Source of the DNA: a virus
Reading direction: 5' to 3' (one strand)
Virus record (IMG/VR): IMGVR_UViG_3300025674_000252
Location: 1-29,814 of that record
Length of the DNA stretch: 29,814 nt
A model generated the notes under the pieces. The model searched no databases. It was not told where the DNA came from and worked only from the letters and a program-made list of their open reading frames with translations. Of the stretch, positions 4,886 through 28,861 are shown one piece after another (the first letter of the stretch is position 1; each line of letters begins with the position of its first letter). Position numbers and translations under genes: made by a program.

Positions 4886-4930
4886 CACAACGACTCTGGA
4901 CGTTTTTTTCCAGTGCAGAAGGTCAGACTA

Positions 4931-5317
4931 ATGACAGATTTGTCTAAACCGTCAAAAAAAGACGAGAAAGAAACTTCTCGCAAGGCTAATCAGTTGCCTA
5001 AGCCGCAGGGCTATAAAATATTGATTGCTTTACCTGAGCCAGATGAAAAGACGGAAGGCGGAATTATTAAATCCGCTAGGTCGTTGCAAGACGAAGAGGT
5101 TGGTTCGATTGTAGGAATGGTGCTTAAACTTGGCCCAGACACTTACAGCGATCCTCAACGATTCCCGTCTGGCGCTTTTTGCAAAGAGGGAGATTGGGTT
5201 TTGATGCGATCTTACTCAGGCACTAGATTCAAAGTGCAAGGCAAAGAGTTCCGGTTAATCAACGATGACAGTGTTGAAGCTGTAGTCGAAGACCCAAGAG
5301 GCATAGTTAAAGTATGA
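4931..5317 (+). CDS. GroES-like co-chaperonin (phage Cpn10)
   Basis: This protein would cap the host GroEL folding chamber, as GroES or T4 gp31 do, probably to fold the capsid protein made from 7458. The 128-residue product has a charged extension (1-22) and then a Cpn10-like domain: PKPQGYKILIALPEPDE (about 24-39), a mobile-loop region with GGII at 43-46 corresponding to the hydrophobic GroEL-binding tripeptide of GroES, VGSIVGMVLKLGP (57-69), CKEGDWVLM (84-92) and the closing strands VQGKEFRLINDDSVEAVVE. An upstream GTG at 4913 is in frame, but AGAAGG at 4917-4922 lies at good distance before ATG 4931, so I take the latter. The stop overlaps the scaffold start (ATGA). No GroEL gene is seen here. 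Confidence 0.88.
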   Translation: MTDLSKPSKKDEKETSRKANQLPKPQGYKILIALPEPDEKTEGGIIKSARSLQDEEVGSIVGMVLKLGPDTYSDPQRFPSGAFCKEGDWVLMRSYSGTRFKVQGKEFRLINDDSVEAVVEDPRGIVKV

Positions 5318-19733: not shown

Positions 19734-21590
19734 ATGCCCTTACAGAAGATTCAGTTTGCCGCTGGAATTAGCAAAGAAGGGACAGACTATACTGCCGATC
19801 AGGGGTGGACTGATTCTGACAAAATACGCTTTAGGAAAGGTCGCCCTGAAAAAATAGGCGGTTGGACTAAGTTTTCTCTAAATACTTTTCAGGGTGTTTG
19901 CAGGTCTCTCTACACATGGGCCACACTGGGTGCTACCAAGCACACTGGTGTTGGGACAAACCTAAAGTTCTACATCACTGAGGGAGTAAACTTCAATGAT
20001 GTCACGCCACTAAGGGCTACTACATCAGCGGGTGATGTTACGTTTTCAGCGTCCAATGAAAGTTCCACGATTACTGTGTCAGATACGTCTCACGGTGCAG
20101 TTGTTAATGATTTTGTAACATTCTCTGGCGCGGCTAGCCTTGGTGGAACCGTTATTGCTAGCGTCCTTAATCAGGAATATCAGATAGCATCTATAATAAA
20201 TTCCAATAGCTATACTGTTATTGCAAAAGATACCTCTGGCAACACCGTAACCGCCAACGCTAGCGACTCTGGGAATGGCGGCAGTAGCACTGTTGGTGCG
20301 TATCAGATAAACACAGGATTGAATACGTTTGTTCAAAGCACGGGTTGGGGCGTTAACACTTGGGGTAGTGGAGGATTTGGTTCTGTAACAGCAATAACAG
20401 CATCAAGTCAGCTAAGACTATATAGTCAAGATAATTTTGGCGAAGACCTTGTGTTCAATCCAAGGGGCGGAGGTATATATTACTATGACATTTCCGCAGG
20501 TCTAGCAAACAGAGCTTTGGACATTACCGATGCCTCACTTGGAGGATCAAACCCCCCAACAGCGGCCTTGCAGGTAATGGTATCCGATGTTGATCAGCAT
20601 GTTATTGCTTTTGGCGTAAATCCTATTGGGTCATCAACCATAGACCCTTTGTTTATACGATTCTCTGATCAGGGTAGCTTAACCGACTGGACACCCACCG
20701 CGACCAATACTTCAGGCGGAGCGAGAATAAACTCTGGCTCACTTATCGTTGGCGCTGTTCAGACAAGGCAAGAGATACTTGTATTCACAGATGAAAGCCT
20801 GCATTCAATGAGATTCGTGGGCGGCCCTTTTGTATTTGACTTTTCGACAGTTAGCACAGATGTTTCGATGGTTTCCCCTAGAGCGGCAATCAATGCGAGA
20901 GGCTCCGTGTACTTTATGGATGAGGGTAGTTTTTACGCCTATAACGGTTCAGTTCAGCCTCTCCCATGCTCCGTTAAGGACTATGTGTTCTCCAACTTAA
21001 ATGTCGGCCAATCTTACAAGGTATTTGCGGCTGAAAACTCTGCATACTCCGAGGTTACTTGGTATTATCCTATAGGAACTGGAGATACAGAGATAACCAA
21101 CTATGTGACGTACAACTACGAGGAAAACCTGTGGTCTGTAGGGACGTTAGATAGAGGCGCATGGTTTGATTCAGGAATGGGAGATAGCCCCATAGCAACG
21201 AGCGTTGATACAGATACAGCCGCAACCTACAACTACCTCTATAGCCATGAGACCGGCTTTGATGCTGACGGCTCCGCTATGACGGCTTATGTGGAGTCTG
21301 GAGACCTTGAGATAGGTGACGGTGAAGGGTTCATGTTTATGAGCAAGGTTATACCCGACTTCTCGTTTGACGGAGCCGACCCTTCAGTTGATATTACAGT
21401 AAAAGGCAGAAACTATCCGCTTGAAGATGCAACAGAGCTTTCGTCAGTTACTGTTAACCAGTCAACAACAGAGTCATACCTGCGAGCGCGGGCTAGACAC
21501 CCAGTGATCAGGGTGGAAAGCACAGGCTCTGGATACGGCTGGAGACTTGGAACGCTTAGATTTCAGATTAGACAGGATGGCAGAAGATAA
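19734..21590 (+). CDS. Tail nozzle/hub protein (P22 gp10 / T7 gp12-like)
   Basis: The 618-residue product is beta-rich throughout with repeated short strands, as expected of the beta-propeller-type nozzle of short-tailed phages. Recognisable parts are the N-terminal GISKEGTDYTADQGWTDSDKIRFRKGRPEKIGGWTKF (about 10-46) and the middle DVDQHVIAFGVNP...DPLFIRFSDQGSLTDWTPT. Then follow GGARINSGSLIVGAVQTRQEILVFTDESLHSMRFVGGPFVF and a C-terminal RARARHPVIRVESTGSGYGWRLGTLRFQIRQDGRR. The Arg/Trp pattern at both ends is typical of marine podovirus proteins of this kind. An inserted domain at about 95-190 is Ser/Thr/Asn-rich. It would bind the adaptor ring and form the lower tail. No depolymerase motif is seen. 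Confidence 0.75.
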   Translation: MPLQKIQFAAGISKEGTDYTADQGWTDSDKIRFRKGRPEKIGGWTKFSLNTFQGVCRSLYTWATLGATKHTGVGTNLKFYITEGVNFNDVTPLRATTSAGDVTFSASNESSTITVSDTSHGAVVNDFVTFSGAASLGGTVIASVLNQEYQIASIINSNSYTVIAKDTSGNTVTANASDSGNGGSSTVGAYQINTGLNTFVQSTGWGVNTWGSGGFGSVTAITASSQLRLYSQDNFGEDLVFNPRGGGIYYYDISAGLANRALDITDASLGGSNPPTAALQVMVSDVDQHVIAFGVNPIGSSTIDPLFIRFSDQGSLTDWTPTATNTSGGARINSGSLIVGAVQTRQEILVFTDESLHSMRFVGGPFVFDFSTVSTDVSMVSPRAAINARGSVYFMDEGSFYAYNGSVQPLPCSVKDYVFSNLNVGQSYKVFAAENSAYSEVTWYYPIGTGDTEITNYVTYNYEENLWSVGTLDRGAWFDSGMGDSPIATSVDTDTAATYNYLYSHETGFDADGSAMTAYVESGDLEIGDGEGFMFMSKVIPDFSFDGADPSVDITVKGRNYPLEDATELSSVTVNQSTTESYLRARARHPVIRVESTGSGYGWRLGTLRFQIRQDGRR

Positions 21591-22110: not shown

Positions 22111-24413
22111 TGAACAACCCTAACGCGCAATATGCAAACCAACGCCCAATGCAGGGGGTTGCCGACCAAATGGCTACTCACGGACGTTATGGCGATAGCA
22201 TGATGGTTCACATGAACCCTGTCGAGGTTGCAGGACTTGCTTCTCTGTCTCCTACAGGCTCTTTGACCACTAACCCTGTGACAGGTCAGCCAGAGGCGTT
22301 CCTGCCCTTTTTAGCGCCATTGCTTGGAGGTATGCTTGGATCGGCAGGATTTACCGCTCTTGGTGGTGCGCTTGGGACAGGGGTTTTAGGTTCTGCCGCA
22401 ACTGCTCTAGGAGCTAATGCGGCTCTCGCGAGTGCTGTAGGCTCCGGTCTGGCTACAACCGCAGTGACTGGAGACTTAAAGCAGGGGATTATGTCTGGGT
22501 TAACTGGTTATGGTATTGGTCAAGCATTAGGGGGTGCGTCAGACCTTATAGCTGGAGTTCCAGAAGCCACAACAGCACTGACGGGGGCAGAGCAGGCACT
22601 TGCCCAAGGAACTCAAGACCTTAGTCAGCAGGCTTTGTCTCAAGGGGTAGAGGCATCTGCGCTGGCAAGCCCTGAGCTAACAAATCTTCAAGGAAATGTG
22701 TTTGACGCAAAAGAAGGGCTTATGCAGGCCAATGTTGATTCGATGAATGTAAGCACCGGAGATATTCTTAAAGACGGAAAGGTGGATTTTGCAAAGAACC
22801 TAATGTCAAAGCAGTCAATTCTTCCCATAGCGATTGGCGAAGGCGCAAGAGCAGGCGAGATGCTTTCAGATGACATGAGGGCGGCTGGGCGTAAGAGGCA
22901 GGCTGAGAAAGATGCGGAGTTGGCAGATGCTTATGCGCGGAGAGACTATGCGGTAGAGATGGCTCGGAAGGACTCTGCTCTTAACAACCCATACACAGGA
23001 GCATACGGGTACAATCAGGGCGGTTTAACTTCGATTAACCCTCAAGATTACATGCGCCAGCGCAATAACCTAGAGAATATGGGCAGAGCGCCTGTTCAGA
23101 TGTTTGAGGGGGGTGGAATCCCCTCTGATATTCGTATGTTCAACGTCAATAGAGGCAATGCTGTAGATACGCAACGCTCAATTAGACCCCCCAGAATTGT
23201 CACAGGTGCGGAGTTAGAGGCTGAGTCAGCGGCTATGGTAGCTGAAGGTCGAGACCCTCGCGCAGGATTCGGCGCAGAGAAAGTTTACTTTAGAGAGCCT
23301 CTGCCAGACCCAGTAGACCCAGTAGACCCAGCAGACCCCCCTGCCGATAGCAATCCTCCATATGAGCTTCCGCCAAATTTCCCAACATTCCCCGGAAAAG
23401 GCGGTTACAACCCAAGCGCAAACATGGATATGGGAACCACTGAAGTAGAGAGCGCGATGAGGGCTAATGCTTTAAGAACTGGTCGCGGTGCGTTTGATGC
23501 AAATGATGCAGAAAGAGCCTTGAGGGACAGTTCCGCAAGAGAGGCTGGCGCTTTGGTAACTGGAATTGGCAGTGAAGACCTTCGCAGGAGCTTTGCTAGC
23601 GATTACGGAGACTTGACCGTACCGATATACAACAGAAACGAAATGGCTAGTGGAGGCATTGTGTCTTTAGCTGAAGGGCAGGGCGTTCCGTCTATGGCTC
23701 CAGCAATGGGTGCAGAAGGCATGGAAATGACCACCTATCCCGATCAGTCCACAATGCAGATGGACGCACCTCAGATGGAGCCTAACGAGATTCTTTCGGT
23801 TATTCAGGAGGTCAAGCAGATTATTCAGGTAGACCCTGATGGCACAAGAGGAGATCAGCAAAGATATAATATGCTTAAACAAAAGCTAAAAGCTATTACC
23901 GCTCAGATTGGTGAGGAAGCGTTGATGGAGCTTATGGGTACAAACACTGACCCTGTGTCTTTGGCTAATGGTGGAATGACCCCTCAAAACAAAGAAACTC
24001 AGTTGCTAGAGCAAACAACTCAAGCGATCCTAGGCCAGTTGCCCTCCGATCAAGCTGAGGTTGTTATTAACATGTTCGTAGATACCTACGGCAGTGAAGT
24101 CTTCGCTCAGTTGCGCGATACAGTGCTACAATCGGTAGTGCCAAACGCCCAAACAGAAGGTAAGATAGAAGGTCAAGGTGGAGGCATGGATGACGAGGTT
24201 ATGGGCATGATTGGCAATCAACAGCCAGTCGCAGTAAGCCCTGACGAGTACATTGTTCCCGCTGATGTAGTTTCTGGCATTGGTGACGGAAGCTCAAGTG
24301 CTGGCGCAGAACAATTAGATGAGATGCTAGATAGGGTTCGGTCAACAAGAACCGGAACAACTAGACAGCCTGCTCCAATTCAAGCTAAACAAGGTGGGGT
24401 ATTGCCTGCATGA
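22110..24413 (+). CDS. Large internal/ejection-type virion protein with Gly-Gly motifs
   Basis: The 767-residue product begins with a conserved head (MMVHMNPVEVAGLASLSPTG, about 31-50, then QPEAFLPFLAPLLGG). A long Gly/Ala-rich hydrophobic stretch (about 64-143) follows that could insert into membranes, as ejection proteins do. The middle is helical and charged (about 250-290) and a Pro/Asp linker comes at about 400-425. The C-terminal part has VSPDEYIVPADVVSGIGDGSSSAGAEQLDEMLDRVR (about 710-745), a motif I recall from marine phage virion proteins. Short GG units recur: NQGGLTSI, FEGGGIPSDI, GKGGYNP, ASGGIVSL, ANGGMTPQ and KQGGVLPA. Membrane-penetrating ejection protein is an inference from composition and place. 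Confidence 0.65.
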   Translation: MNNPNAQYANQRPMQGVADQMATHGRYGDSMMVHMNPVEVAGLASLSPTGSLTTNPVTGQPEAFLPFLAPLLGGMLGSAGFTALGGALGTGVLGSAATALGANAALASAVGSGLATTAVTGDLKQGIMSGLTGYGIGQALGGASDLIAGVPEATTALTGAEQALAQGTQDLSQQALSQGVEASALASPELTNLQGNVFDAKEGLMQANVDSMNVSTGDILKDGKVDFAKNLMSKQSILPIAIGEGARAGEMLSDDMRAAGRKRQAEKDAELADAYARRDYAVEMARKDSALNNPYTGAYGYNQGGLTSINPQDYMRQRNNLENMGRAPVQMFEGGGIPSDIRMFNVNRGNAVDTQRSIRPPRIVTGAELEAESAAMVAEGRDPRAGFGAEKVYFREPLPDPVDPVDPADPPADSNPPYELPPNFPTFPGKGGYNPSANMDMGTTEVESAMRANALRTGRGAFDANDAERALRDSSAREAGALVTGIGSEDLRRSFASDYGDLTVPIYNRNEMASGGIVSLAEGQGVPSMAPAMGAEGMEMTTYPDQSTMQMDAPQMEPNEILSVIQEVKQIIQVDPDGTRGDQQRYNMLKQKLKAITAQIGEEALMELMGTNTDPVSLANGGMTPQNKETQLLEQTTQAILGQLPSDQAEVVINMFVDTYGSEVFAQLRDTVLQSVVPNAQTEGKIEGQGGGMDDEVMGMIGNQQPVAVSPDEYIVPADVVSGIGDGSSSAGAEQLDEMLDRVRSTRTGTTRQPAPIQAKQGGVLPA
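23306..23332 (+). repeat. 9-bp tandem repeat coding for a Pro-Asp linker
   Basis: Three units of AGACCCAGT, the third with C as its last base, encode a PVD-type linker in the 767-residue protein. Slippage would change linker length by three residues without shifting the frame. Confidence 0.8.
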
Positions 24414-24919
24414 GTAGCGTAGCCGAAAAGAAAGAGGTTAAAAGAGACCTTTCTAGAGAACCACGGGTAAAGAACAAGAACGCCCCCAGAAAGATCACAC
24501 ACACCATCACAATAGCCCCTACAACGTATTTAAATGCATTGTGGCCTGACGTAGAGGATCAGCTTAAACGCGCTGTAATACGCTCTAATGGGCGCTGGAC
24601 GATGGAAGTCCTTTTTCAGGTCATCTCTAGCGGTCAGCAACATCTTTGGTTGGCGTTTAATGAAGATAAAGAGATTGAGGGCGTAGGCACTACAGAGTTT
24701 ATAGATTATCCAAACAAAAGGATGCTTGCCATTCAGTTCCTTGGAGGAGACAACTTCAACGACTGGGTGTGGGATATGCTTGAAAAGTTCAACGGCTTCG
24801 CAAAAGATTCAGGTTGTGACGGAATAGAGGCCACTGCAAGGCAGGGATTCTGGAAATGGCTAAAGCAAGATGACTTTGAACAGTCATATGTTGTTTATGA
24901 GAAGAGGATTGAGAAATGA
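24410..24919 (+). CDS. GNAT-fold virion protein (T7 gp13-like)
   Basis: The 169-residue product has a basic disordered start (about 1-28) and a GNAT-like core: TMEVLFQVISSGQQHLWLAFNEDKEIEGVGTTEFIDYPNKRMLAIQFLGG (about 64-113), a helix with DWVWDMLEKFNGFAKDSGCDGIEATARQGFWKWLK, and a last strand SYVVYEKRIE. The clear acetyl-CoA pyrophosphate loop (Q/RxxGxG/A) is not seen. T7 gp13 and relatives keep the fold and act in virion assembly, which is the likely role. Position between two large internal proteins agrees. ATGA overlaps join it to both neighbours. An active acetyltransferase is less likely. Confidence 0.72.
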   Translation: MSSVAEKKEVKRDLSREPRVKNKNAPRKITHTITIAPTTYLNALWPDVEDQLKRAVIRSNGRWTMEVLFQVISSGQQHLWLAFNEDKEIEGVGTTEFIDYPNKRMLAIQFLGGDNFNDWVWDMLEKFNGFAKDSGCDGIEATARQGFWKWLKQDDFEQSYVVYEKRIEK

Positions 24920-27030
24920 GCAAAGGTGGCGGCGGCGGTGGCGTACAAGAAGTCGAGCAAACAACAACCAACTTGCCCGAATACGCAAGACCGTTCTATG
25001 AAAACCTCTTAGGTAGAGCAACGTATGAAAGCGAAAGAAGATATGAGGGCTACCCGGCTCCTCGTCTTGCCGATTTTGACCCGTATGAAATGGACGCTAT
25101 GGGCGGTATCGCTGATATGGCGTATCGTGGCGATCCAATGCAACTACAGCAGGCTTCTGAGTTGGCGGCAGGAGTTGGCTATCAAGACCCAAATCAAGCA
25201 ATGCAAGTCGCTAATGCCTATCGGCCTGATGCTCAGTATTCAGGCTATTTTGCTGGAGACATTAACTCTGGTTATGGCGCAGGAAATTTAGGTCAAGGCT
25301 TTCAAGCAGGCCAGAGAGATTCTGGCTATATGGCTCAGGACGTTGACTCTGGCTATCAGGCGGGGGACATAGGCAGTGATTATCAGGCTATGTATCGCGG
25401 TACTGGCTATCAGCCAATGCAATTTGATGCAGGCTACGATCCAAGCGCAAGAGGCTCTCAGTTTATAGCTGAAGACCTTTTATCCCAGTACGCACCTCAG
25501 CAGTACGAAACTGGCTATCAAGGAAGAGAATTTGATGCAGGGTATGTTGCCAGAGAGCTTGGGCAGGATTACACGGCAAGAGACCTTGAAAGTGGATTTG
25601 AGGCGGGAAGCATAACAGATCAAGGCGTTCTTGATCAGTACATGAACCCTTATCAGCAACTTGTTACTGATGTTCAGAAGCGAGAAGCGAGACGAGAAGC
25701 CGATAAGAGCGCGGCAGATATCGGCCTTCAAGCGGCTGGTTCTGGTGCTTTTGGCGGCTACCGTGAGGGTGTTTTGCTTGCCGAGCAGGACAGAAACCTA
25801 CAGCAACAGTTGTCTGACATACAGGCTACGGGCGATCAGGCGGCATTTAATCAGGCTTTACAGGCGTTTGAGGCTGATCGATCCGCTAGAGGTCAAGAGG
25901 AGACGTTTAGACAGTCTGCCTTTGGCACTACTGAGCAGGCGCGACAAGCTCAACAGCAGATGGCGATATCATCCTTTGAAGCGGGTGAAAGGGCTAAACA
26001 GCAAGCCGCTACGCTAGGCATGACAGCCCAGCAAGCAGAAGATGCCGCGCAACAGGCGAGAGAGCAATTTGGTCAGTCTGCATTCGGGATGAATGAAGAG
26101 GCTCAACGAGCGGCAGAACAGTTCCGTCAGTCGGCTTACGGGCAGACTATGGACGCAAGGGCGCAACAAGAGCAGTTTGCACAAGCGGCTTTTAATGCTG
26201 GAGAACAGGCAAGACAACAGGCGGCACAGTTAGGTCTAACAGCCCAACAAGCAACTGATGCGGCTAATCAGGCTAGAGAGAACTTTGAGGTCAATGCGTT
26301 TAATCAGTTTGATCAGGCTAGGCAACAGCAACAGCAGTTTGAGTTTGCGGCGTTTAACGCAGGCGAGCAGGCAAGACAGCAAGCCGCTCAGTTAGGGTTA
26401 ACTGCTCAACAGCAAGAAGAGTCGGCCCGTCAAGCTCAGGAGCAGTTCTCTCAGACAGCATTCTCTGAAAACGAACAGCTTAGAATGGCTCAACAGCAAG
26501 AAGACAGAGCGGTGTTTGAAGCACAGCAACGTGCCGAGCAAGAAGGTGCTAGGCTTGGTCTTTCTGCTCAAGAGATACAGGAGCGCGTTAATCAGGCTCA
26601 GAACGATGCCAGAATGGCCGCTAGAGACGCAAATAATCAGTACATGCTAAACCAGTCCAATCTAGCAATGCAGGCGTTAGACTCAGATAGAGCAAACAGG
26701 GATCAGATACTGCGATCCTCTGAGCTTCTTGGTAGCCTTGGCGGTCAAGATCAGCGTATGGAGCTTGAGCGATTGCAGAACTTGCAGGCGGCAGGCCAGA
26801 ATATGCGAGACTTGGAGCAACGTAGCCTTGATATGGGATATCAGGACTTCTTGCGCCAGCAAGCATTTCCTCGCGAACAGCTTGGATTCTTCAGTAACAT
26901 CCTTCAGGGTATTCCGGTTACGCCCGGAACCACTAGAACAGCATTTGGCGAAGGGCCATCCTCTTACCAGCAGGCTCTTGGTGCAGGTATTGGTGGTGTT
27001 GGGTTGTATAATGCCCTTGGTCGCGGTTAA
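24916..27030 (+). CDS. Repeat-rich internal virion protein (9- and 18-residue periodic)
   Basis: The 704-residue product has four parts. After MSKGGGGGGV and a conserved N-terminal region (NLPEYARPFYENLLGRATYESERRYEGYPAPRLADFDPYE, about 19-58) comes a tract at 102-228 in which Tyr or Phe occurs every ninth residue, 15 times without a miss, typically as (S/T)GY. Residues 235-310 are a conserved helical hinge (YMNPYQQLVTDVQKREARREADKS, GSGAFGGYREGVLLAEQD). Then 311-580 holds 15 tandem 18-residue modules, consensus near EQF-Q-AF--GEQARQQA, probably one long straight helix or coiled coil. The C-terminus (about 580-704) ends with Gly-rich segments. Similar layouts are familiar to me from marine phage virion proteins. 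A tape-measure-like rod or DNA-ejection conduit is a reasonable inference. Confidence 0.7.
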   Translation: MSKGGGGGGVQEVEQTTTNLPEYARPFYENLLGRATYESERRYEGYPAPRLADFDPYEMDAMGGIADMAYRGDPMQLQQASELAAGVGYQDPNQAMQVANAYRPDAQYSGYFAGDINSGYGAGNLGQGFQAGQRDSGYMAQDVDSGYQAGDIGSDYQAMYRGTGYQPMQFDAGYDPSARGSQFIAEDLLSQYAPQQYETGYQGREFDAGYVARELGQDYTARDLESGFEAGSITDQGVLDQYMNPYQQLVTDVQKREARREADKSAADIGLQAAGSGAFGGYREGVLLAEQDRNLQQQLSDIQATGDQAAFNQALQAFEADRSARGQEETFRQSAFGTTEQARQAQQQMAISSFEAGERAKQQAATLGMTAQQAEDAAQQAREQFGQSAFGMNEEAQRAAEQFRQSAYGQTMDARAQQEQFAQAAFNAGEQARQQAAQLGLTAQQATDAANQARENFEVNAFNQFDQARQQQQQFEFAAFNAGEQARQQAAQLGLTAQQQEESARQAQEQFSQTAFSENEQLRMAQQQEDRAVFEAQQRAEQEGARLGLSAQEIQERVNQAQNDARMAARDANNQYMLNQSNLAMQALDSDRANRDQILRSSELLGSLGGQDQRMELERLQNLQAAGQNMRDLEQRSLDMGYQDFLRQQAFPREQLGFFSNILQGIPVTPGTTRTAFGEGPSSYQQALGAGIGGVGLYNALGRG
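25219..25599 (+). repeat. 15 aromatic residues at exact 9-residue spacing
   Basis: In the protein from 24916, Y102, Y111, Y120, F129, Y138, Y147, Y156, Y165, Y174, F183, Y192, Y201, Y210, Y219 and F228 form one unbroken register. The residue before is usually Gly (or Asp/Gln), and the unit often ends in D/E plus a hydrophobic residue. No insertion or deletion disturbs the spacing. Confidence 0.9.
25846..26655 (+). repeat. 15 tandem 18-residue helical modules
   Basis: Modules start at residues 311, 329, 347, 365, 383, 401, 419, 437, 455, 473, 491, 509, 527, 545 and 563 with no gaps. Phe/Tyr is at module position 8 in ten of them. Four (starting 365, 437, 491, 545) are of an LGLTAQQ variant type, the last three spaced by 54 residues. 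The DNA copies differ in many codons, so this is an old array. Confidence 0.88.
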
Positions 27031-27055: not shown

Positions 27056-28861
27056 ATGAATAACATACAGCAACAAATCGACATTGTTAGCCGACTTCCT
27101 GATGATGTGCTTTTGATGAAAGCGCAGAAGGGAGACCCATCAATTCCTCAGTGGGCTTTTGTCTCTGAGATTGATGACCGTACCCGTATGCGTAAAAACA
27201 GTGAAGCCTCACAGCAAGCACAGCCCAAAGTTGCACAACGTGTTGTTCAGGAAGGTATTGCCGCATTACAGCCCATGCAACAACCCATGCAACAGCCTCA
27301 AGGAATGTACGCTGGCGGCACTATTCGTATGCAACGCGGGGGCTTTTTGAACCAGCGCGACTTTAACTTCTTAGGCGCAGAACCTCAATCTAGAGGCGCA
27401 TATATTGACGATGGAAAGCGTATTGATGCTTCCTTACTTGACCCTGCCAAACTTTTTATCGACAACATAGCGAGAGCGCGTGAAATGGGAGTGCCTGAGA
27501 GCCGATTGGTGGATACCATACGCTCTCAGTTTGGAGATACTGCGGGAGACCAAGCCGCTCAAATCTATTCTAGCCTGAACGATGTGCAAAAAGTGAGACC
27601 TGTAATAGACGATATGACATCCGATGCTATTCCGCTATCAACTATAGTGCCAGAAGGAAGAAGACTTTCAGATCGAAAAACCCCTCTAGGCGCTATTGCC
27701 AGAGCAGTTTCATCGCCGTTTGAGAATGCTCCTCAAGATTTTGATGACACTACCGCTGTTGATCAGATTTTTGCAGACGCAAAAAATGCCAAAAAGCCAA
27801 TCTCAGAAGAAGAGTTTTTGGCGGCTGGGGGAATGCCCACATCCATGCAGTCGGACTTGCTAGCGGTAGTGTCTCCTACCAATATCAGGTTGCCAACAAA
27901 GGTAGATGAAGATGGAGAGAAAATCGATGATCCTTCAGGCGCACTGGTAGAGGATGCTAGTAAGCACCTCGTCCGTCCCCCTACAAAAGAAGAGACTGAT
28001 GTTCAAACAGGATATTTTGCTGGTTTAGGCGATGTAGCAACAGGTATTGGTAAATTTTTTACGCTTCCAGACGGGATGAACGGCAACAATACGACAGCCA
28101 GCACGAACAGCAACAATACGGCAGACAGCACTGGAGCATTGCTGGGCGCTTCTACTGCTAACGCTAGCAATTCCGGGCAGGGCGGCGCAAGTGATGACAT
28201 TGACACTCAGCGTGAAGATCAGCTTAATCGGTTAATAGCATCGGCAAGTACACGCACAGGTACAGGTACAGGTACAGGTACAGGTACAGGTGTAGAGGAT
28301 CCGTTTACTGGATTAACAGCCGAAACCCAAGATTCTGTTAGACAGCAGGCTGAGGGTTTCGCGCAGTCTATAGCCTCACAGGCTGGCAATGACAGCAAAA
28401 TAGATCAGCAAATGCTTTCTACTGCACTAATGTACATAGGTGCTGGCCTTATGAAGAATGACCTCGGAGGAGGCATTGAAAATGCGGCTAAGGCGGTTAC
28501 AGGCATACGAGAGAAAGAAGCCGATAGAGCCTTACAGAAGGAATATTACGATACTCGAAGGGCTGAAGCCTTAAGAGATCAAGCCTTTAGGTCAAGTTCC
28601 GCAGATCAGGCTGATCAGATAAAGCTGGCAACTGAGGTGCGAAGAGAGCTAATAGATTGGGAGAAGTCTGATCCTGCTTTGGCAGGGTTGAAGATATCCA
28701 GCCCCAACGAGTACGCAAGAAGACGCGCCGCTAAGAGAGCAGAGCTTGGGCGTAGCATCGGTTCAGACCTGAGAGTGCCGAAAAGAATAGTTGATGCTTA
28801 TATTGGCTCTGAGTCAGGTTCTTTGACTTCTGGGAAGTATTCTATAACCGAGGTTAAATAG
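27056..28861 (+). CDS. Large internal virion protein with N-terminal MYAGG/QRGG motif
   Basis: The 601-residue product begins with a conserved block: DIVSRLPDDVLLMKAQKGDPSIPQWAFVSEIDDRTRMRK (about 9-47), a QAQPKVAQRVVQEGIAAL helix, a Met/Gln/Pro linker and MYAGGTIRMQRGGFLNQ (about 84-100). I recall this block from marine phage virion proteins. The middle is acidic and Asn/Ser/Thr-rich, with a Thr-Gly tract from a hexanucleotide repeat. The C-terminal third is helical (MYIGAGLMKNDLGGGIENAAKAVTGIREKEADRALQKEYYDTRRAEALRDQAFR). It is probably an internal or ejected protein working with the genes on either side. No enzymatic motif visible. A weak GAGGT lies upstream of ATG 27056. Confidence 0.68.
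   Translation: MNNIQQQIDIVSRLPDDVLLMKAQKGDPSIPQWAFVSEIDDRTRMRKNSEASQQAQPKVAQRVVQEGIAALQPMQQPMQQPQGMYAGGTIRMQRGGFLNQRDFNFLGAEPQSRGAYIDDGKRIDASLLDPAKLFIDNIARAREMGVPESRLVDTIRSQFGDTAGDQAAQIYSSLNDVQKVRPVIDDMTSDAIPLSTIVPEGRRLSDRKTPLGAIARAVSSPFENAPQDFDDTTAVDQIFADAKNAKKPISEEEFLAAGGMPTSMQSDLLAVVSPTNIRLPTKVDEDGEKIDDPSGALVEDASKHLVRPPTKEETDVQTGYFAGLGDVATGIGKFFTLPDGMNGNNTTASTNSNNTADSTGALLGASTANASNSGQGGASDDIDTQREDQLNRLIASASTRTGTGTGTGTGTGVEDPFTGLTAETQDSVRQQAEGFAQSIASQAGNDSKIDQQMLSTALMYIGAGLMKNDLGGGIENAAKAVTGIREKEADRALQKEYYDTRRAEALRDQAFRSSSADQADQIKLATEVRRELIDWEKSDPALAGLKISSPNEYARRRAAKRAELGRSIGSDLRVPKRIVDAYIGSESGSLTSGKYSITEVK
28256..28291 (+). repeat. (ACAGGT)6 hexanucleotide microsatellite
   Basis: Six perfect ACAGGT units lie inside the gene at 27056 and encode alternating Thr and Gly. 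Length changes would add or remove Thr-Gly pairs without a frameshift. Confidence 0.95.

Follow-up and report, generated by a model that had tools for sequence, protein, structure and literature searches.

Gene neighbourhood and family of the 704-residue protein

The window, a 29,814-nt (29.8-kb) stretch of viral DNA, carries a podovirus structural module that includes the terminase large subunit, the portal, a GroES-like protein, a major head/protease-like protein, fibres, holin, endolysin and the stabilisation protein. The GroES-like co-chaperonin gene (4913-5317; phrog_3188, E 5.5e-14) adjoins the portal gene. By portal and stabilisation protein, the cultured relatives are Pelagibacter phages HTVC023P and HTVC027P, Roseobacter phages CRP-901 and CRP-902, DSL-LC04 and Planktothrix phages. 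Metagenome contigs make up the main material of this study. No host could be read from the MAG contigs, whose bins belong to unrelated taxa.

The protein of interest is encoded by an open reading frame of 704 codons (24916-27030, plus strand). The gene directly upstream encodes a 169-residue protein, and a gene of similar length is present in most homologous loci. In the next gene downstream, the hexamer GTACAG is repeated seven times (28248-28291), encoding a Thr-Gly run; the length of this gene also varies among relatives.

The 704-residue protein had no match in Pfam, and a PDB sequence search with the profile A2 gave no significant match. It matched the PHROG family phrog_4287, "DNA ejection protein", weakly and over its C-terminal part only (E 0.0023). 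Its short homologues matched the same family at 4.5e-15 (L063), 9e-12 (L073) and 2e-11 (L125), and among isolates Ochrobactrum phage OH did so at 2e-40 and Planktothrix phage Pag-Yong1 at 2e-19. In OH, ctvy9321 and CRP-901/902, the gene follows the stabilisation and acetyltransferase genes and precedes annotated internal-virion and injection proteins, and the gene order of the window agrees with this. On the basis of family and gene position, we conclude that the protein is probably a podovirus DNA-ejection protein of the PHROG 4287 family, delivered into the host before the DNA enters.

Members of this family from OH (p40), Pag-Yong1 and Caulobacter phage RW (gp65) share with the window protein a linker motif, which reads YMNP...GAFGGSR in these phages and YMNPYQQ...GAFGGYREG in the window. 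The OH gene likewise lies after tail and acetyltransferase genes, and that of ctvy9321 before internal virion and DNA injection proteins. Unlike the window protein, however, OH p40, Pag-Yong1 and RW gp65 lack the 9-residue array described below and have only a short helical part. The relatives in OH (L227:8998-10137) and ctvy9321 (L230:8998-10236) also carry a C-terminal Peptidase_S74 domain, which is missing from the window protein; Pfam searches of the relatives found it in distant ones only. This chaperone domain probably explains why these relatives were annotated as tail fibres or endosialidases.

Two tandem arrays separated by a linker of fixed length

A first-pass annotation of the window had described 15 consecutive Tyr or Phe residues, one every nine residues, from Y102 (codon 25219-25221) to F228 (codon 25597-25599), and a recount confirmed it. 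Because residue 237 is Gly, with Tyr returning at 246, the run ends at F228 as claimed. When residues 95-240 (146 residues, of which 21 are aromatic) were shuffled 2000 times and all periods from 3 to 30 were considered, the longest run was 6, and usually 3-4. Self-identity within the same region peaked at lags of 9, 18, 27 and 36. Tandem Repeats Finder, run on the DNA, did not list the aromatic array; at the nucleotide level the copies have diverged too far for this program, and the 9-residue register is thus kept at the level of the protein. An assembly artefact is an unlikely source of such a register.

The same protein contains a second array, which the first-pass annotation had missed. 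It consists of 18-residue units with the pattern A-F-x-x-x-E-x-A-R-Q... in a region rich in Gln and Ala. Eighteen residues correspond to five α-helical turns. Aromatic pairs at a lag of 18 occur 212 times in the helical array as compared with 39 expected, and a helical wheel compiled from 544 units of 88 homologues has a hydrophobic face (A1/F2/A8/L15) and a Q/R/K face (positions 3/7/10/14). Between the two arrays lies the linker, in which the distance from YM to GAFGG is 35 residues in every homologue measured (38 by a second set of landmarks).

Table 1. Features in and around the gene for the 704-residue protein (window coordinates).
Feature	Position	Strand	Basis
Tail stabilisation structural protein (P22 gp10-like position), phrog_3287, marker of the podovirus tail module	19734..21590	+	E 1e-68; annotated stabilization proteins among its matches
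169-aa protein of the preceding gene, where OH and CRP-901/902 have an annotated acetyltransferase/GNAT gene	24410..24919	+	gene order
Conserved N-terminal part, aa 1-93 (GGG..., TTTNLPEYARPFYE...)	24916..25194	+	alignments
9-residue aromatic array Y102-F228, proposed extended tape	25219..25599	+	consensus Y-Q-A-G-x-[LYFIV]-G-S-G; AF2: essentially without helix or strand
Fixed-length conserved linker, proposed helical hairpin tip, Y242-MNPY...GAFGGYREG-285	25639..25770	+	landmark distances
Helical array, 18-residue units, aa about 335-598	25918..26709	+	autocorrelation at 18 and 36; AF2 helix
Conserved C-terminal part (LDMGYQDFLRQQ..., Gly-rich tail GAGIGGVGLYNALG)	26710..27030	+	alignments

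AlphaFold2 (AF2) predicted, at low confidence, a helix from 245 to 661 with short breaks and none in the 9-residue units, as well as helices at 25-40, 56-71 and 75-88 in the N-terminal part; the mean pLDDT was 47 for the window protein and 54 for a 475-residue homologue. Structure prediction had been suggested as a check on the aromatic repeat; AF2 gave the array no periodic fold, but did so at a pLDDT of about 28, too low to count for or against one.

Coupled lengths and mirrored inserts

Homologues were taken from IMG/VR as distinct sequences only, of which 130 were collected and 125 entered the contrast analysis. By profile landmarks, we measured the length x from the N-terminal part to the linker and the length y from the linker to the C-terminal part; the values can be slightly negative because they are relative to the ends of the models. 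Within one clade, y takes the values 63, 81, 99, 117, 135, 153, 171, 189, 207 and 261, and x the values 51, 60, 69, 78, 87, 96, 105, 113, 123 and 150. Two simple motif-based measures of length gave the same pattern. The number of units in the two arrays is nearly equal (15/14, 11/10 and 18/17 in tape and helix, for example), and open frames reach 842 codons in L262 and 868 in L342, the largest found. The stabilisation and acetyltransferase genes are nearly constant in length, and two variable neighbours showed no trend against the arrays that was visible by eye.

Independent contrasts on a tree built from the conserved parts only (124 contrasts from 125 distinct homologues) gave a correlation of 0.965 and a reduced-major-axis slope of 2.00. 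Among the 153 pairs at a tree distance below 0.1, 63 differ in length, and all 63 lie within 4 residues of a 2:1 ratio; a change in one array alone was seen in none of the 153. Non-overlapping sister comparisons, picked among pairs that differ in both arrays (the close pairs above being the unselected set), gave a ratio of exactly 2.00 in 19 of 22 cases, with 9n residues of array set against 18n of helix. The pair L103/L095, with a difference of 30/90, is an exception. One could envision that the co-variation is only apparent and stems from shared ancestry, a few long-long and short-short alleles having been spread by recombination; many contigs are indeed near-identical, and phage modules recombine. 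The use of distinct sequences only, the 22 non-overlapping tree-path comparisons and the contrasts speak against this, as does a second lineage, whose units differ in size (see below) and which follows the rule too. Given that the contrasts already contradict it, we regard this explanation as extremely improbable.

Two further observations concern register. The super-period of array and helix peaks at three units for both in L026 and at four units for both in L027, an agreement that is absent from some homologues and suggestive only. Comparison of L027 with L040 shows a gain of 4 residues in the tape matched by 7 in the helix, near the proposed hairpin tip, and the coupling may therefore hold for part-units as well.

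A further homologue search added 45 distinct sequences. In Roseobacter phages CRP-901/902, an independent lineage, the protein at the same gene position has a tape unit of 12 residues (YQGASREELLGQ) and a helix unit of 18 (RFGAEDVMRGQFMEDRQA). The lengths in the relatives of CRP-901/902 are related with a slope of 1.51 (r 0.985), which, with 12-residue units, again means one tape unit per helix unit. CRP-902 gp34 itself (L234:13329-14771) breaks the rule by one unit, at 62/119 where 74/119 is expected: it is at least 96% identical to L237:3001-4473 and has the same helix, but one 12-residue tape unit fewer. This mismatch could be either natural or a repeat collapsed in assembly.

The first-pass annotation had reasoned that strict spacing means a structure that repeats and gives every aromatic side chain an equivalent place, and had looked to homologues in which the number of units would vary while the spacing held. 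This view is upheld, as aromatic runs range from 4 to 18 with the spacing of nine kept wherever the array is present. The spacing is not universal, however: the unit is 12 in the CRP-901/902 lineage, and in some homologues the array is missing or replaced by a non-periodic insert. Proteins without the periodicity serve as a control for the coupling. With a tape run of at least 5, array and helix lengths correlate at r 0.986, as compared with r 0.64 below 5, and in proteins with a non-periodic or Pro-rich insert the coupling weakens or vanishes (112/12, 150/16, 109/27 and 144/27, for example). L059:5950-7299, L298, L313 and L316 have a Pro-rich or otherwise non-periodic insert in place of the 9-residue units and a very short helix.

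Not only the lengths but also the places of the inserts correspond. The distances of inserts from the linker in array and helix correlate with a Pearson coefficient of 0.90 and a slope of 1.70 in the 22 non-overlapping comparisons, and their fractional positions with a coefficient of 0.80. Inserts are mirrored about the linker also in those pairs of the CRP-901/902 lineage that were checked. Since the sign would be the opposite if the arrays ran parallel, these results show an antiparallel order of the two arrays. A single duplication cannot yield both inserts, because the conserved linker of fixed length separates them. The similarity of unit types between the two arms peaked, with a score of 0.188, at the antiparallel offset that was expected (+1), but one parallel offset scored nearly as high (0.175), and we, therefore, leave unit-type matching out of the argument.

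These observations bear on several other explanations. One scenario is that the arrays never touch and that each is separately fitted to a third ruler, such as the head, the tail channel or the length of a tunnel. This would account for equal total lengths, and ejection proteins have to fit both head and envelope. However, it offers no reason for mirrored local inserts, for the exact matching of units or for the exemption of non-periodic inserts, and we think that it is unlikely. Another scenario, a free-standing solenoid, was among the structures named in the first-pass annotation, as was a wrap around DNA. Neither is supported. A self-contained solenoid gives no reason why a non-adjacent segment should gain 18 residues per 9, in mirrored positions. 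In a solenoid, the 9-residue units would form a β-solenoid or β-roll of their own with the helix as a separate element. The strict short period, the single aromatic per unit and the Gly/Ser-rich turns fit such a fold, and nonapeptide β-rolls do exist in RTX proteins, where the repeat of consensus GGxGxDxUx binds calcium. The array shares with them a tandem repeat of nine residues, but its consensus (Y-Q-A-G-x-hydrophobic-G-S-G), its aromatics and the lack of a Pfam match led us to reject an RTX identity, and we know of no RTX β-roll that is coupled to a helix. A β-solenoid does not predict that a distant part of the chain should be coupled to it at 2:1, and AF2 placed no strands in the array, at the low confidence given above. 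A β-solenoid is thus very unlikely.

An antiparallel hairpin model and its relation to known systems

The explanation that we favour, with a probability of about 0.75, is that this probable DNA-ejection protein of a marine podovirus forms an antiparallel hairpin with a tape arm and a helix arm. The correlated lengths and the mirrored inserts suggest, from sequence alone, that the two arrays lie side by side as the arms of a rod of variable length. The chain would leave the conserved N-terminal base, run outward in an extended, polyproline-like conformation as the tape, docking an aromatic side chain every 27 Å, turn at the fixed helical tip (YMNPY...GGYRE) and return to the conserved C-terminal base as a long α-helix with a surface repeat of 18 residues. 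If the arms must keep equal length and register, then units are tolerated as matched pairs only (9 or 12 residues of tape with 18 of helix). An α-helix rises 1.5 Å per residue, and a polyproline II helix about 3.0-3.1 Å. Eighteen helical residues span 27 Å; nine tape residues would therefore rise 3.0 Å each, a value near that of polyproline II, and under the hairpin model the tape of the window protein would be about 40 nm long. A 12-residue unit could also span about 27 Å as a 7-residue helical turn plus 5 extended residues, although this is arithmetic and not evidence. The tape was not seen placed on the helix in either AF2 model, both of low confidence; the proposed contact may join the two arms of a single chain or those of chains that lie next to each other.

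A distance of 27 Å also equals about 8 bp of B-DNA, and one could imagine that the tape binds or wraps the virion DNA by aromatic stacking, one unit per DNA step, with the helix lining the other side of the DNA. Ejection proteins do sit near DNA, and the Q/R face of the helix resembles the lumen of the phiX174 H tube (PMC7354561). However, the tape is almost without Lys (0.1%) and has little Arg (4%), and its coupling to helix length points to packing of protein against protein, which makes a DNA wrap highly improbable.

Returning to the hairpin, several copies might assemble into a rod or tube bearing the Q/R-rich helix face. Such a rod could be stored in the head and ejected as part of the path of the DNA across the host envelope, and the number of units would set its length in steps of 27 Å. 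We also consider it fairly probable, if less so than the hairpin as a whole, that the two arrays constitute a two-track ruler: unlike tandem arrays in one chain, locked unit for unit in antiparallel order and changing only in matched pairs, with a tape unit of 9 residues in one lineage and 12 in another, both set against one 18-residue helix unit. If this is true, phages can adjust how long an ejection rod is by steps of 27 Å. Little is understood of the ejection proteins of podoviruses, and a disorder-like array defeats structure prediction; here coupled gains of repeats report the rise per residue, the chain direction and the register without a structure. Co-variation of unit number could serve as a way of reading contacts between repeat arrays. 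The analysis brings to light, in marine phages, a family of probable ejection proteins that are tunable in length, and makes an exact prediction for cryo-EM, namely a 27-Å repeat with the tape antiparallel to the helix. Once hosts are known, the number of units can be set against the depth of the envelope or the size of the head.

A search of open-access papers found none on 9- or 18-residue phage repeats, an absence that is not proof. Three known systems invite comparison. The pilot protein H of phiX174 forms a helical tube for DNA delivery with a lumen lined by amide and guanidinium groups, a chemistry like that of the Q/R/K-rich helix face; H is an unrelated microvirus protein, and the accessible part of the source describes no tape for it (PMC7354561). 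Tape measure proteins of siphophages contain aromatic repeats of 11 and 11-11-18 residues in variable copy number and act as rulers (PMC3271669). The helix of the window protein shares this trait, with aromatics strongly enriched at lag 18 and mildly at lag 11, but tape measure proteins have a single array and belong to long-tailed phages, whereas the window protein has a second, matched array of 9-residue units and lies among portal, stabilisation and ejection genes of podovirus type. In T7, residues 157-228 of gp16 form an extended "molecular tape" that cements the helical ejection tunnel of gp15 (PMC8954989). No homology to gp15 or gp16 was found by any search made (the profile against PDB; T7 was absent among the phage matches). 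Nevertheless, an extended stretch runs along a helical tunnel in T7 much as we propose for the window protein, with the difference that in T7 the tape is one protein and the tunnel another, with neither repeats nor length coupling described for them, whereas in the window protein both arms belong to one chain.
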